Below are positions 31,440 through 40,475 of a stretch of DNA of 64,000 bases, in pieces. The notes under the pieces were generated by a model. It saw only the letters and a list, made by a program, of their open reading frames with translations, had not been told where the DNA came from and did no database searches. The position numbers were made by a program, and so were the translations under genes. This stretch comes from Rhizoctonia solani. Its lineage: Eukaryota > Basidiomycota > Agaricomycetes > Cantharellales > Ceratobasidiaceae. Every line of letters starts with the position of its first letter. Position 1 is the first letter of the stretch. Location of the stretch: assembly GCF_016906535.1 (NCBI RefSeq), contig NC_057382.1, positions 1,488,001-1,552,000 of the forward strand, given 5' to 3'.

Positions 31440-32379
31440 TCAGGCAGGAAGTTCGAATTTTTCTCCCTGCATGACGCTAAAACAAGTCAAATGAATTAAA
31501 AAGCAAGGCCTCACTTGAATAGGATGAACATACCGGGTGAAGTACACATAGAAGAAGTCAATGTACAATCCCGTCTGAACTAATCCCGCAACGACCGCAA
31601 TGGGATCTACGGTCCCTTCAGTCCAGTACCTATGACATCATGGGTATAAAATTAAAGTGGGGCGCAGATCAAGTAAAAGACTCACCGGTAGATCCAGTTG
31701 GGGACATAAAGTGCACGGTAAGCCCCAAGAGCTGCGATGTAATGTGTTGTTATGGTCTCGGCTTCACCGGTCCTTTGCAACATGAATAGCTGTGGGAAGA
31801 TGGCGACTGCTTCGAGATAAATGGAGAACGCCCAGAGGATTTCGGATAGTTTGAACTCGTAGTTGAAGATTAGGGCGAGCACCACCGAAGGGCCAACCAG
31901 GTATTCAACCTTGAAAGTGTCAATCGAGGGGTCGGTGGTTGAGCTGCACGTATGTCTGATGGTAAGGACCGGGTACGAGTAATCATATGAGAACGAAATA
32001 AGGACGTACCGATACTTGAATTTCATGAGGTAGAGGGTGTATACACTCGAAGCGATAAAGAAAATCTTCATCAAGGTGTTGTACAACGAAACAAAGTGGA
32101 AGGTCAACAAATCGATATATCGGGTCAGGAACACGGTCACATAGAGTGCCTGTGTCTTGAACGAGATACCTAGGATAAACACAGATCTAAGCAAGAGCCA
32201 CCCCCGCTTTTGTGTGGACATACCTCTGGATGACTTGCTCGTCTGAATTTTGTGAAGTAGAATAAGGATAGACGCAAGATGCGACATATCACCTGAATAT
32301 CACAAAGAACATATGTCAGTAGGCATGGTTCCTCGTAGAGTGTGCATCATTACTCACCGAGGAGCCTAAAGGTATTCAT
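31440..32379 (-). CDS. ERD2: ER lumen protein-retaining (KDEL/HDEL) receptor
   Basis: Six exons encode about 210 residues, normal for the seven-helix Erd2 family. A short first exon (MNTFRLLG, ATG at 32379) splices to DMSHLASILILLHKIQTSKS, then GISFKTQALYVTVFLTRYID, FVSLYNTLMKIFFI, TFKVEYLVGP, LWAFSIYLEAVAIFPQLFML, ETITTHYIAALGAYRALYV, YWTEGTVDPIA and a cytosolic tail ending KFELPA. These blocks are near-invariant in Erd2. It recycles HDEL-bearing ER residents from the Golgi. All splice joints keep the frame and no break was found. Confidence 0.95.
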
Positions 32380-34122: not shown

Positions 34123-34233
34123 TCATGCGATTACACAGTATGATCCCGACCCAGATCCACCCGACGTCTCTTGATCTACAGGCTGCTCAGCCTCAGCGGC
34201 GTAGCTGTAAGTGTAGGCAATGCAGGAATCCAT
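34123..34233 (-). CDS. candidate lipopeptide mating-pheromone precursor 1 (CaaX peptide, 36 aa)
   Basis: An intronless frame starts MDSCIAYTYSYAAEAEQPVD and ends in GSYCVIA followed by TGA. CVIA is a canonical CaaX farnesylation box. Basidiomycete pheromone precursors are short, start MD(S/T), and end in CaaX with a Gly/Ser-rich mature region. The paralogue at 35356-35463 shares MDS, YSY, EQP-DQETSGG, GSGSYCVIA and the intronless structure. Conservation at the protein level between two copies in otherwise different flanks supports a real gene. The usual E-R/D-type maturation site 10-15 residues before the Cys is not obvious; DQE-T is the nearest candidate. No STE3 receptor gene lies in the window. 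It could instead be another prenylated small peptide. Confidence 0.65.
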   Translation of the reverse strand: MDSCIAYTYSYAAEAEQPVDQETSGGSGSGSYCVIA

Positions 34234-35355
34234 GAGCGTGATAGGTGTGCTCTAGAGAAGTCGGTGTGCGTAAAGCCAGGTAGAAAAGTACAAGAGAGCT
34301 GGACTACTGAGGAAATATGGCTCTGCGCAAGTTGTGATATATACCTCTCATTTGCTCTTGGGTTGAATTGTTCGGCGGTAGCTTGGAATATGACGAGGGG
34401 ACATTCATCAGATCCAGTATCTGAGAATACAATATGATGGCTATTGTCGCGTGAGAGAGCGTTGCTGAAATCGGGTGCTAGTTACGTTTGATATGATAGA
34501 GGGATGGTGGGTGGACTGCAGTCGAATTAAAGGATCTTCAATGCACGAGTGAGAGCCAGTCGTTTACGCACTAGCGCAATCAAGATGATCTTCGTCCGGA
34601 AGTACAGAATGGGTGCAATGTGCGTCGAAGCAGTGTGTCAATCGATTTGGTCGGGACACTCCGTCCGTGGTGACGACATTGCTATGTGAATTGCTCCGCT
34701 CTATTGTCCTCAGCCGGACTGAGACGATAACGATCAAGCTATGTTTATACACGGCATGTGTCAATCGATTTGGTCGGGACACTCCGTCCACGTGGTGACG
34801 ACATTGCTATGTGAATTGCTCCGCTCTATTGTCCTCAGCCGGACTGAGACGATAACGATCAAGCTATGTATTATACACGGCAGTGCACAATGATAATGAC
34901 TACACAAAGAGGCTTGTCTTCGTACAAAGCAGCAGCGCGCCTGGGTCACATCTATTAGGACTTGCCTGTCCTAATCGAAAGCTAGACTGCAAATGCATTC
35001 GAGGTGAATCGACGCGACCCAAACACCAACTCCATTCCGATCTGGATCCCGGAAAGTTCCATGAAATCCCGGCATCACACACGGCTGAAAGGTACCAGAA
35101 TTTGGCTAGTGCGAACTTTTCCATTGGCTTTGTTTGTCTTCGTTTCAGATCTACTCGTTCAACATCGATATATGCATATACATCTGTATTCAATTTCCAT
35201 ATTCGTATACATGTAAAACATCCAAACCCGTAAAAGTACAATTCTGTTTAATTCATAAGCTCACTATGAGCTGACAAGGTGTCAAGAAAGTGAAAAAAAG
35301 CAATAATAATAAGAACGAATAAAGGCTGGTGTGCTCTTGCGACCTTGTGATCGCT
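34234..35355. other. spacer between the two CaaX peptide genes
   Basis: This is 1.1 kb containing the 123-bp tandem repeat. Opposite-strand frames at 34883-35241 show no motif. No third CaaX peptide was found by eye in this interval. Confidence 0.4.
34616..34885. repeat. 123-bp tandem duplication between the two CaaX peptide genes
   Basis: Copies starting TGTGTCAATCGATTTGGTCG lie at 34634 and 34757. They differ by small insertions (GTCCACGTGG against GTCCGTGG; ATGTATTATAC against ATGTTTATAC). No coding potential is evident. Confidence 0.9.
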
Positions 35356-35463
35356 TTATGCAATAACGCAGTACGACCCGGATCCTCCACCGCTGGTCTC
35401 TTGGTCGATGGGCTGCTCGACTTCGGTAGTGTAGGAATAGGAGTAGACGGTAGCAGAGTCCAT
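35356..35463 (-). CDS. candidate lipopeptide mating-pheromone precursor 2 (CaaX peptide, 35 aa)
   Basis: An intronless frame starts MDSATVYSYSYTTEVEQPID and ends GSGSYCVIA then TAA. It matches the 34.1-kb copy at about two thirds of positions with one Gly/Ser-loop length change. Farnesylation at Cys, removal of VIA and carboxymethylation would be the expected processing, as in other fungal pheromones. A 10-bp microsatellite (TATGAGTAGG three times, 35475-35504) lies just upstream of the ATG, in the presumed leader. The mature N-terminus is not clear. Confidence comes from the paralogue and the perfect CaaX end. Confidence 0.65.
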   Translation of the reverse strand: MDSATVYSYSYTTEVEQPIDQETSGGGSGSYCVIA

Positions 35464-36135
35464 TGCTAGTGGGTTATGAGTAGGTATGAGTAGGTATGAG
35501 TAGGTGTGGTAAGGCAAGTATGCGCAGACGAGAGAGGATGCCCGGTTACTGAGGAGATGACGACTCCCGAGTCGAGTAGCTTTATAGCTCGAGCTGCTCA
35601 CATCGTCTTTTTGTTCTCGACGACTGTGCTGAGGAGAGGGGGAAGGCATTGTAGGCCATGTGGGTGGCCAGAGTAGGAGACGCTATTGTCGACAGCATGA
35701 TTTAGTAATGTGAATAGGGGGTCACGATGACTGACAGAAATGCCTGTGGTCTGCCGGCAAGCTCGCTGAAACGGGCCTAGTGTCCATTGCGGCATATGCA
35801 TGGTTACAGATACCGTAAATTCGCATTAGCTAATCAGATCGCCTCACTTTGAACAATAATACAGTTTATCGAGGATGTTTGGAGGATAGAGATCCTTCGA
35901 GATAGAATACTGTATTCGAATGTAGCTCTAATGGTAGCATGTCCGACACTAAGCTTATATGACACGGTTGTTTTTGAGTGAGATGAGACGACGCAAACGA
36001 TATATTATTATACAGCTTGGGATAGTCCGTCGCGTATATTCAAGATCCAAGGGCGTCCGCGCAAAAGTGCAAAAGTGCAAAAAAAGAAGGAAAGGGGAAT
36101 AACCAAAAAATCACCCAAACGTAGTAAAGAATTAA
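35464..36135. other. intergenic between CaaX peptide 2 and the aspartic protease
   Basis: Holds the CaaX-gene promoter and the protease 3' flank. No gene is supported. Confidence 0.4.
35475..35504. repeat. 10-bp microsatellite, three units
   Basis: TATGAGTAGG is repeated three times without error, 12 bases upstream of the second CaaX peptide start on its coding strand. Confidence 0.9.
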
Positions 36136-38759
36136 TCAAAGAGTTGGAGGTAAAGTCACTGGTGTGGATTCGCCTGGGTCGGCGGGCACTTCCGTTATGG
36201 GTGGCATAGTAAGGCTTAATTGATTGGCAAAGTCCGCCGCAGGTCCGAGACCAACATCCACACTGGGTCTAGCTCGAGCCAGATCATCCTCTTCGACAAG
36301 TTGACTGGTGGCAGGCCTCGAGTCCACATGCGTGTTGGTAGGAATCACCAGCTGGTCCGGCAAGAAATTCATTTGCCCAAGCGGAGAGCGCGATCCACCA
36401 GCGAGGAGCGGCATTCCAATACTCCGGCCGAGTCGTCCCGCGAGTACGTCGGGCGATGGTGCATTCCGCCCTGGCTCGATCCTTGAAGGCCCAAAATTCC
36501 TCCCGGCGAACCTGCTGCTTGGAGGATATCCGCGGGCATCGAGCTCGGTCGCCCGAAATCAACACTACCGCCGATAAAGTGTACCTTTGCTCCACCTGCA
36601 CCTGCACCCACTGCCAACGACATTGTCCGGTTCGCACGTTCCAGCACGTCGATATCGCCGGTTTCCCTCGGTCGTACCGTGGCCCAAGAATCCCGTACAG
36701 TGAGATTATCGCGCTAGAACTTGTCGGCGCATTCGAGTTCCTCAACCCACGGCTCGTGGACTCGCACTCGTCGTCTGAATCCGGCTCGACCCATTCTCCC
36801 ATCAATCCAACACGCGACCCCGCAAACGAATGTGTCTTGCCGGGCTTCCGGTTCTTTGCGCGACTCGTACGAGATCCAACGGCCGTAGCGCCATCGTCCC
36901 ACAAGACGCTTTCGCGGTTGTAAGCAGCGAAGGTCGCGGGACAGCCAATCATCAACGGAATCCTTCTCCGCATCGACCTCGTTGGCTTGTGCGGCCGCAC
37001 GTAGACGTTTCCATCGTCGCTGCATCACCCACCACCTCGCCCCAAACAATCCAGCTGAAAGACCAAAAAAGAGAAGGATGCCAATCAACGCTATTATCCC
37101 AGCGCTGAGTTTTTTGCTTTTCTCGGTCATCCCTGGCAGACCGTTGATACCATTGGATGAACCACCGCCCCCTGAAGATCCTGAACTTGAACCGGAAGAG
37201 CCAGATTCGAGAGACTCCTTGAGAATCCGCACTCGATAAAAGTCCTGGAGACCAGTTTGCCAAGAGGTAAGCGACATCAAGCCGAGCTGAGGGCGAGCTG
37301 TTGAAGGATCGTAGTCTCCTGTCGCCACGCCAGTCTTTGGTGAATCGTATTGCAGGACAGTGTAGACGTTACGCATAAATGCGGCTCCAAGGACACTAAG
37401 TAATAGGTCCGGTGTCATCGGATTAGGGTTGGTAACCATGGAAGGCTGAGAAGAATGCTTACATATCTGTCGAATAAAGCGAATCTGAGGCCTGCCATGA
37501 TCCAATGCAGTTTCCGACATATGGGTTATAAGAATCGGGGTAAGTCATATCGAGTGGATGAGCTGCATACTCGACGCCCCCGATTCTAAAAGTGACATTG
37601 ATGGGGAGGTTGCAGGGAACGTAGTCTGCGTAGAAAAAGAAAAGAAAACATCAGAAAATGTCATCAAGGATTGCGAACACAATCGGTGACGAGCGGGCGT
37701 GATCCTAAAATAGAAAACTGCCAAGGAATTTGTCTGAAACTCCAACTTACACATTCCATCTGACGCAGGCCCAATACCAAACGCTCCCCAGAATGCGTTC
37801 GCCAGGGCTCTAGTGCTGATGATGTGTGCCCACCGGTGTCGATGTCGCCAGTGGCCAGATGGAGCGGGAGCCGGACACAACAGATGAAGTCAATGAACCT
37901 CCCTGCGAGTGTTGAAGTTGTACGCCTGTGTAGTAGTATTGTAGCTGCCGACCAACCAAGCGGCTATCTCGGTGATGGGTAGTCTCCAGTGTGTCGCATC
38001 GGTAATGGGGGAGTAAACTATTTTGGATGGATCGGGTACGACTTTTGAGGGGTGTCTGCCGATCGAGAGGAGCGATGGGATACCGGAGTTCGACTGCCCG
38101 GGACGTTCCAGAGAAATTCCAACCCAACGATTGGAAGGAGAGGTGGGAGAGGAGAAGAGGTTGGTCGCGACGGTAGAAACGGAAAATTCCAGCTTGTCCT
38201 TGAATTGGTCAACGAACAAGGAGTTGTACTCGAGGGCAAGGCCCAGTAATCCAACAAAGTTGGAGGTGAGCCGCTCGTTTTCGATCTGTGATGCCGAGAC
38301 TGAGCTCGAGGTGAGCACTCGAGCACAAGAAATGAACAAGAGAAACTTACGCAAAGCTTGGTTGGCAATGGGGTAGCTGCCAAGCCTGATGTTCTCAAAC
38401 ACAATATTACCTTGCACACTTCCAACAAGGTAAGTAAAATCGGTGACCGCCCCTGAGTCGACTGTTGTAGGCGACCAGCCGTATAGGGATGTTCCAGCCC
38501 GTTGGCACACTGTCGACTTGCATGAGCTCGATGCAAGCCATGCGTCCGACGAGCCGCAGTCGACTTGCATCTCGAACGTCGCTCCAGAGCTCACAGTCAC
38601 CCCAATAGAGTAAATTCTGTATTTAAGCGTGTTTTTTCAGCCATAATATAAAATCGAGGGTAACCAAGTCGTACTCACGCCTCGGTAAAACCGTCGCCAG
38701 ACATTGTCATGGGAAGCACAATGCCCCCCGCACCACCAGTTCCCTCAATAGCAGCCATT
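36136..38759 (-). CDS. membrane-anchored pepsin-type aspartic protease (A1 family)
   Basis: ATG 38759 starts MAAIEGTGGAGGIVLPM. After an intron (about 38610-38680) come SIGVTVSSGATFEMQ and the first active-site region VDCGSSDAWLASSSC. VGLLGLALEYNSLFVDQF, RWVGISLERPG and LLSIGRHPSKV follow. The second site reads DIDTGGHT, followed by STRALANAFWGAFGIG. Further on are NVTFRIGGVEYAAHPLD and LLGAAFMRNVYTVLQYD. A Gly/Ser-rich linker leads to one membrane helix (SAGIIALIGILLFFGLSAGLF) and a cytosolic tail of about 270 residues ending at 36136. This layout (A1 domain, linker, TM, tail) is common in Agaricomycetes. The first motif is D-C-G-S in place of D-T/S-G-S. Several one-base frame changes occur (around 37825-37850, 36935, 36650 and 36420), so the exact product is uncertain. 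Confidence 0.75.
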
Positions 38760-39020: not shown

Positions 39021-40475
39021 TTACATAGCCTTGTCTTTAACAACAGCACCCCATACTTCTCTGAACTGTGTGATGGTTTCATGACCAAGTATGGAAAACT
39101 CGACCTCTTCAAAAGCATTCTCAAATGGTGCACCAGGGAGAACCAACAACTCTGCCCAAATCTCCGCAATCGTGCGCACACGGTTCTGAAAAACACCCGT
39201 CCCAAAAGATCCTAGCACGAGTTTGGCATCGCCTTGTTGAAGGAAGAGCGCTAGAATACGATGCATCCGCGAGCGCATCAACTGCGTAATATGAAGTTCC
39301 AAGGCAACCTCGTCCACGCGCCGTCCCTCGTCTTCTGCTTCCTTGTGTGCCTGCTGTCTGACAACACCTGCGTTGACCGCCGCGCTCGTGACCACGTTTA
39401 CCAAAACCGGACTTGCCCAGCTGTCCCACTCGTCTCGCACCATGATTACCCCGGGCGTATAGACCATCGCATCCGTGTACACACCACGTTCGTACTGCGA
39501 CCGGTCAGGTAAATCGCCAGCCAAGAACCAGTATCGCCACGCCCGCGACCCCTCCTTGCGTTTCCACGCATCCGACGATGGTACCCATAGAAACTCTCGG
39601 CCCATTCCGATATCAAAGACGCATAGAGCGTCGACGCTCGGCACAACGCCTCCTCTTGCGCCTGAGCGCCACTAACAAATCCACCACCCGGGTTCATGGC
39701 CGACGCAAAATTCAACACACCCGTGCGCGACGGGCGGTCATCGCCAGATGTTGGGAGGTGCCATGTAGTATCAGTCGGCGATTGGGGTTGTCCACCTGGA
39801 ATAGTTCCTAGCTCCCGCGCGCCCCCTACAGTCGATCGTTCGAGTATGGTAAACCTCGTTCGTGAACGGACGGGCGTGAAGTCCGTTTGAGAATGTATGT
39901 CCGACGCGGTGTATGTTGGTGGACCCTCTGTTCCCGTCTCTTCGATATCCCAAGCCGGAGATTCGTATCGCTGCTTCACGAGGTCAGGTCCCGCTCTCTG
40001 GGACGTCCGGCCTCCGGCCTCGAGTTGTGCCAAACGACTGGCAAGACTGTCTTCAATAGGCTGAGGCGCAGGAAGGTCGTTTGGGCCAAAATATAATGTA
40101 TTTCGAGTACTTTCTTTGACGCAATCACGTACGGCAACGGTAGTTCCTTCGGGTGTAGCATAGCGGTAAGGCTCTTTAAATATGAGAGTTAATATTTCGT
40201 CTGCTATTTGAGCCCGAGCTGCGCGCGGCTGGTGGGCCGCCGTGTCCTTGCCCTCTTCCTCGTCCACGCCCGCGTCCACCGCGTCCATTTCCTCGAGTAC
40301 CTCTTGCGTTTCCGTGATTACCGCCGGAATTGGAAACCTCGGGTGAATCTGGTGCTCCACGCCCTCTACCAGTGCCTCGATTGCTAGTGCTCGAGCCAGA
40401 AGCAGTCCCACGACTAGATCCTTGGACACTGAAATAATTCATTAAAGTCGGTTGAGATTTATTCTTGTCGGTCAT
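39021..40475 (-). CDS. microbial-type poly(ADP-ribose) glycohydrolase (PARG/macrodomain, DUF2263) with N-terminal PIP-box-like motif
   Basis: ATG 40475 opens with MTDKNKSQPTLMNYF. The QPTLMNYF matches the PCNA-interacting consensus Q-x-x-L-x-x-F/Y-F. An RGG/RG-rich stretch (40430-40230) follows, then QIADEILTLIFKE, YRYATPEGTTVAV, and the catalytic signature GVLNFASAMNPGGGFVSGAQ followed directly by AQEEALCR (the GGG-x(6-8)-QEE of PARGs). TLYASLISEW, YERGVYTDAMVYTPG and LVLGSFGTGVFQNRVRTIAE come next. The end is TAA at 39021. Such enzymes remove poly(ADP-ribose) from proteins in the DNA-damage response; a nuclear location is inferred from the PIP box. A frame change is needed between the RGG part and QIADE (about 40230-40200), and another near 39590-39540. 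The family call is strong. Confidence 0.85.

Follow-up and report, generated by a model that had tools for sequence, protein, structure and literature searches.

In the Agaricomycetes, pheromone-like peptides without a mating-type role have been described in cinerea, L. bicolor, A. bisporus and P. cinnabarinus; as far as the accessible text of PMC8305134 and PMC4101180 goes, they derive from short CaaX precursors present in several similar copies, scattered away from receptors and carrying a Gly/Ser-rich tail that ends in YC. CaaX processing is established knowledge and is also set out in PMC8305134; the precursor is farnesylated, its three C-terminal residues are cut off, and the new end is carboxymethylated. 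The same accessible text gives the non-mating-type tail consensus as GGGSGNGAYC in cinerea and GGGSGNNAYC in L. bicolor, places the mature peptides at 11 to 13 residues, and describes four precursors in A. bisporus that are unlinked or only loosely linked to the mating locus. Four such peptides are reported for P. cinnabarinus in the available part of PMC4101180, where mating-specific precursors are also said to differ greatly in sequence, and a length of about 10 to 11 residues is given for Trichaptum in that of PMC8970355. The function of non-mating STE3-type receptors and non-mating pheromone-like peptides in mushrooms is treated as an open question in the accessible portions of PMC8305134 and PMC8161036. 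For strain XN of Rhizoctonia solani, the agent of rice sheath blight, the available text of PMC7884421 names one Mfa gene, XN_Mfa, and assigns the strain to AG1-IA.

Here we describe two CaaX precursor frames in a window of 64,000 nucleotides of R. solani (C13:1488001-1552000) and their relatives in the genome (40.7 Mb, 16 contigs). The original prediction placed two paralogous frames with CVIA ends in this window, and both are present on the minus strand, 1122 bp apart. PLP1 (34123..34233; the names PLP1 to PLP10 were coined in this analysis) encodes a 36-aa CaaX precursor, MDSCIAYTYSYAAEAEQPVDQETSGGSGSGSYCVIA, and PLP2 (35356..35463) one of 35 aa, MDSATVYSYSYTTEVEQPIDQETSGGGSGSYCVIA, each with a C-terminal CVIA followed by a stop; the putative mature peptides are TSGGSGSGSYC and TSGGGSGSYC, respectively. 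A scan of the window for frames of at least 20 aa, counted from their first ATG and closing with a loosely defined CaaX box, gave 15, and by eye only PLP1 and PLP2 resembled one another. The likeness is not a product of chance, since a whole-genome search with the PLP1 peptide recovered PLP2 at E = 3.3e-11 and eight more copies with E no higher than 5.1e-4. For PLP2, the longest frame that begins with an ATG would encode 97 aa (35356-35649); the 35-aa start is preferred because the paralogues align there and because the DNA 5' of it, which aligns to its duplicate with gaps of 22, 7, 1, 4, and 10 bases, does not look coding.

Whole-genome searches with five different members as queries returned the same ten loci each time among the matches listed, indicating a family of at least ten. 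Four members are located on C13 (PLP1 at 1522123, PLP2 at 1523356, PLP3 at 1477072-1477182, and PLP4 at 1478011-1478121), five on C10 (PLP5 at 1465384, PLP6 at 1475072, PLP7 at 1476767, PLP8 at 1512855, and PLP9 at 1514952), and PLP10 on C4 at 436013. Three DNA patterns were also searched across the genome. A GSYCV-like pattern with a stop gave nine matches (control 0), eight of them family members, and a YCV-like pattern with a stop gave 14 (control 2), again including eight members; the other six comprised four intact pheromone genes of the MDF type, one frame-broken copy of that type, and one site without a pheromone-like frame. The pattern P(V/I/M)DQE matched 37 times (control 5), with nine members among the matches, and none of 15 inspected non-member sites led to a CaaX end, the remaining 13 (PMDQE) being left out. 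Together, these patterns argue against many more members, judged from the DNA, and a copy deviating at all three would escape. Three candidates were rejected as members: C5:351021, a PF08015 match that has no stop after CVIA when read by eye; C3:1860983, a GSYCV match in a 29-codon frame without an ATG; and C3:2059883, a YCV match with only MKYCVIV after the ATG.

An alignment of the ten precursors (33 to 39 aa) revealed a common plan consisting of MDS, a short variable part, YxYS, usually (E/D)QP(V/I)DQE, and a tail of GSxSYCV plus two residues, from which PLP6 (GQD, MH start) and PLP10 (APVDQE) deviate. M1, two Tyr residues, P18, Q21, S24, G28, and SYCV are unchanged in all ten, and every member ends its short frame with a CaaX box and an immediate stop; nine of the ten begin with Met-Asp, PLP6 beginning with MH. 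The charged dipeptide of known maturation sites (ER, DR, EH, NH, EE, or DE, as listed in the accessible text of PMC8305134) is absent at the expected place in all ten, which agrees with the earlier remark that an E-R-type site is missing. That position is occupied by DQE in nine members and by GQD in PLP6, 10 to 11 residues before the end of the presumed tail. A cut after DQE would leave, on C13 and C4, the tails TSGGSGSGSYC (PLP1 and PLP3), TSGGGSGSYC, TSNGGGTGSYC, and TSGGGGSGSYC, and a cut after DQE or GQD would leave LSTRNGSSSYC, LSGRFGSGSYC, LSNRAGSGSYC, VSSRNGSSSYC, and LSSRNGSGSYC on C10. Use of this putative cleavage site would thus yield nine distinct peptides, each 10 to 11 residues long. 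The tails fall into two classes, Gly-rich in five members (PLP1-4 and PLP10) and with an Arg in the other five (PLP5-9, all on C10), and the five C10 copies also cluster in a codon-based neighbour-joining tree without support values.

PLP1 matched PF08015, the Pfam family of fungal mating-type pheromones, at E = 0.0012 (20.3 bits) and PLP2 at E = 0.044 (15.3 bits), and every score seen for the family lies below the curated cut-off of 22 bits. Residues 10-35 of PLP1 align to positions 41-66 of the 66-position profile, that is, to its end. With E allowed up to 10, six of the ten members matched PF08015 (best E 0.0012) and four did not; none of the ten matched any other Pfam family at this threshold. 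A genome search with the profile gave five matches, none over the cut-off, with 17.8 bits as the best score followed by others that included 16.9, 15.9, and 15.6 bits. The matches to PF08015 bear on the idea that the PLPs, as small prenylated peptides, act inside the cell or at a membrane rather than as secreted signals. Such a role could account for the absent charged-dipeptide cleavage site and for the conservation of the N-terminal half (YxYS) as well, but we regard it as improbable, given that PF08015 is the sole Pfam family matched, with PLP1 at the profile end, and that the part from EQP onwards differs by just 0, 3, and 2 nonsynonymous changes within the close pairs PLP1/3, PLP2/4, and PLP8/9, respectively.

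On visual comparison with the consensus given in the accessible text of PMC8305134, the Gly-rich PLP tail resembles GGGSGNGAYC and GGGSGNNAYC. The Rhizoctonia precursors are 33 to 39 aa long against 44 to 54 aa in A. bisporus, and they number ten against four there (PMC8305134, accessible text). The Rhizoctonia set has in common with the described Agaricomycete class the short CaaX precursors, the several similar copies lying away from receptors, and a Gly/Ser-rich tail with YC at its end. In contrast to that class, it carries DQE or GQD in place of the charged dipeptide and has an additional subclass whose tails contain Arg, and its host belongs to the Cantharellales. From the peptides, the set looks like an enlarged variant of the known non-mating pheromone-like class rather than a plain member, because the charged dipeptide is absent and the scores fall below the PF08015 cut-off. 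Among the literature listed for Rhizoctonia and Cantharellales pheromones and in the accessible text of PMC7884421, no mention of the family was found; nor were four tail fragments found in the literature as printed strings, or homologues of the 42-aa open frame of PLP1 in a collection of predicted proteins from outside this genome.

PLP3 and PLP4, the duplicates of PLP1 and PLP2, repeat the order and orientation of these two genes at a distance of about 45 kb on C13. Upstream of PLP1, a block at 34234..34518 on the minus strand shares 77% identity over aligned bases with the corresponding block of PLP3, and the block upstream of PLP2 (35464..35748, minus strand) shares 84% with that of PLP4; this likeness extends about 285 bp, and the same aligner gave 65% and 69% for more distant flanks of the two pairs. 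A two-gene block was duplicated on C13. PLP1 and PLP2 themselves are 62-66% identical outside the coding part. The earlier statement of a likeness limited to the peptides is thus correct for PLP1 against PLP2 but not against their duplicates 45 kb away, with which the upstream sequence is shared. Between PLP1 and PLP2, a 125-bp unit occurs twice in tandem at 34634-34882 with 97% matches and looks recent.

Substitution patterns were evaluated in the three closest pairs of paralogues, where NG86 dN/dS, calculated over few sites, was 0.16 (PLP1/3), 0.15 (PLP2/4), and 0.22 (PLP8/9). The synonymous excess was significant in each (P = 0.001, 0.0009, and 0.0125, respectively; pooled 1e-7). Pooled pN/pS over all 45 pairs was 0.34, the pairs beyond the three closest being near synonymous saturation. 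Purifying selection on the close pairs, and with it their coding status, is well supported by these comparisons; a dN/dS near one, named beforehand for orthologues as evidence against the genes, was not seen between the paralogues. It is hence very improbable that the PLPs are chance open frames or decaying pseudogenes. The frames are indeed very short, and they go unnamed in the mating-gene section of PMC7884421, whose accessible text has one Mfa for XN, but ten intact copies, the low dN/dS, and shared core promoters speak against this.

The core promoters are marked by TATA boxes: TATATA at 34338..34343 (minus strand) begins 110 bp before the ATG of PLP1, and TATAAA at 35581..35586 (minus strand) begins 123 bp before that of PLP2. 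TATAWA starts between -101 and -123 in seven of the ten members and at -79 in PLP7 and PLP10, PLP5 having none in range. The motif at -130 to -75 was found for nine of the ten members versus 241 of 6625 background ATGs, a background composed of the window and twelve 10-kb loci with the members' own loci included; a binomial value for this difference is a guide only, because the members are related, yet counted as independent. The Ustilago-type pheromone response element, ACAA(A/T)G(A/G)G, is absent from the sense strand in the 800 bp upstream of all ten members, and its core (ACAAAG or CTTTGT) occurs within 800 bp upstream of two, PLP1 and PLP7. Among the four MDF-type genes, a TATA box was seen in one, at -143, and in none of the 800 bp upstream of two others, the fourth having been examined over 107 bp only.

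STE3 receptors (PF02076) were detected at three places only in the genome, C15:0.70 Mb, C15:1.553 Mb, and C10:0.194 Mb. None was found on C13 or C4 in this search, so the prediction that the window holds no STE3 gene extends to the whole contig. None of the ten family copies is near an STE3 locus, the nearest being about 1.27 Mb away, on C10. Adjoining an STE3 gene, on the other hand, is a CaaX frame at C15:699219-699350, with coordinates identical to those of the published XN_Mfa (chr15: 699219-350, PMC7884421, accessible text); on this ground we take the genome to be that of R. solani strain XN. In the two 10-kb pieces taken at each of C15:1.553 Mb and C10:0.194 Mb, the scan listed no MD-starting CaaX frame, in line with the receptor variants without adjacent Mfa-like genes described in the available part of PMC7884421. 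XN_Mfa and its paralogues on C15 and C8 share with the PLPs a CaaX end, an MD start, and the same genome, but they differ in an MDFVF N-terminus, a length of 40 to 43 aa, and an ER, ES, or EH in mid-sequence; PF08015 does not match them with E allowed up to 1, and XN_Mfa adjoins STE3 while the PLPs do not. Given the missing linkage and the assignment of XN_Mfa to another family, we rejected the PLPs as the mating pheromone of the P/R locus.

A wider version, in which the PLPs are true mating pheromones for STE3 receptors of other mating types and lie scattered off the P/R locus, is unlikely. The CaaX box, the MD start, and the PF08015 similarity would suit it, as would a mating system that the accessible text of PMC7884421 calls unclear for R. 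solani. However, a separate ER-type pheromone (XN_Mfa) already adjoins STE3, C13 and C4 gave no STE3, the five C10 copies are separated from the C10 receptor by at least about 1.27 Mb, and the PLP tails are alike, unlike the mating-specific precursors of PMC4101180 (accessible text). Of the original reading, CaaX lipopeptide-precursor genes are thus supported by the size of the family, the purifying selection, the core promoters, and the marginal matches to PF08015, but mating pheromones in the strict sense are not supported. The non-mating or orphan set that it offered as an alternative fits best, with ten copies unlinked to the three STE3 loci, XN_Mfa in another family, and a class of this kind known in Agaricomycetes.

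We consider it likely that the PLP frames are precursor genes of farnesylated, secreted pheromone-like peptides without a mating-type role, which would act in self-signalling, probably through STE3-type receptors. For these peptides we infer prenylation, cleavage, export, a receptor, and a role as follows. The Cys of CVIA would be farnesylated, VIA lost, and the new end carboxymethylated; cleavage N-terminal to the tail, probably at the conserved (V/I)DQE block or directly behind it, would then allow export of a 10- to 11-residue lipopeptide such as TSGGSGSGSYC. The receivers are likely to be STE3-type receptors encoded elsewhere, and our best guess at a pairing is the two without an adjacent pheromone gene, at C15:1.553 Mb and C10:0.194 Mb. 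Because the family lies far from the mating locus, another cell-to-cell signal is likelier than mating, and the outcome may be self-signalling in hyphal growth or fusion instead of mate choice. The proposal of PLPs as self-signals for the two orphan receptors draws on the analogy with S. commune, where, according to the accessible text of PMC8161036, receptors that have no pheromone genes around them influence the direction of growth and self-avoidance, and their possible ligands are proposed to be self-pheromones. Rhizoctonia is a fungus classified by hyphal fusion, and its ten peptide genes and two orphan receptors provide named candidates on both sides. A long shot is that the ten genes together make up a self-recognition code of several peptides, whose nine lipopeptides in two tail classes would be read by non-mating receptors and help hyphae to distinguish self from non-self as they grow or anastomose.

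Further intact MDF-type precursors kin to XN_Mfa were located on the plus strand at C15:650264-650395, C15:399058-399180, and C8:305902-306033; they are 40 to 43 aa long and end in CVVA or CVIA, and PMC7884421 names only XN_Mfa in its accessible text. The candidate pheromone genes of XN would thereby rise from the one named there to at least 14 intact frames (ten PLP and four of the MDF type). A frame-broken MDF-type copy, with its MDF start and YCVVA end in different frames, lies at about 689.4-689.5 kb on C15, with XN_Mfa and the P/R receptor about 10 kb away. Within the window, the minus strand also encodes an ER lumen retaining receptor at 31682-32299 (PF00810, E 2.1e-55), which is not an STE3 receptor and which we take to be a seven-helix membrane protein. 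Adjoining PLP2 at 36717-38636 (minus strand) is an aspartyl protease exon (PF00026, E 1.6e-9) and, after it, a frame rich in Gly and Ser that has an apparent membrane helix, and a microbial-type PARG catalytic domain (PF10021, E 3e-25) is located at 39449-40438 on the same strand.
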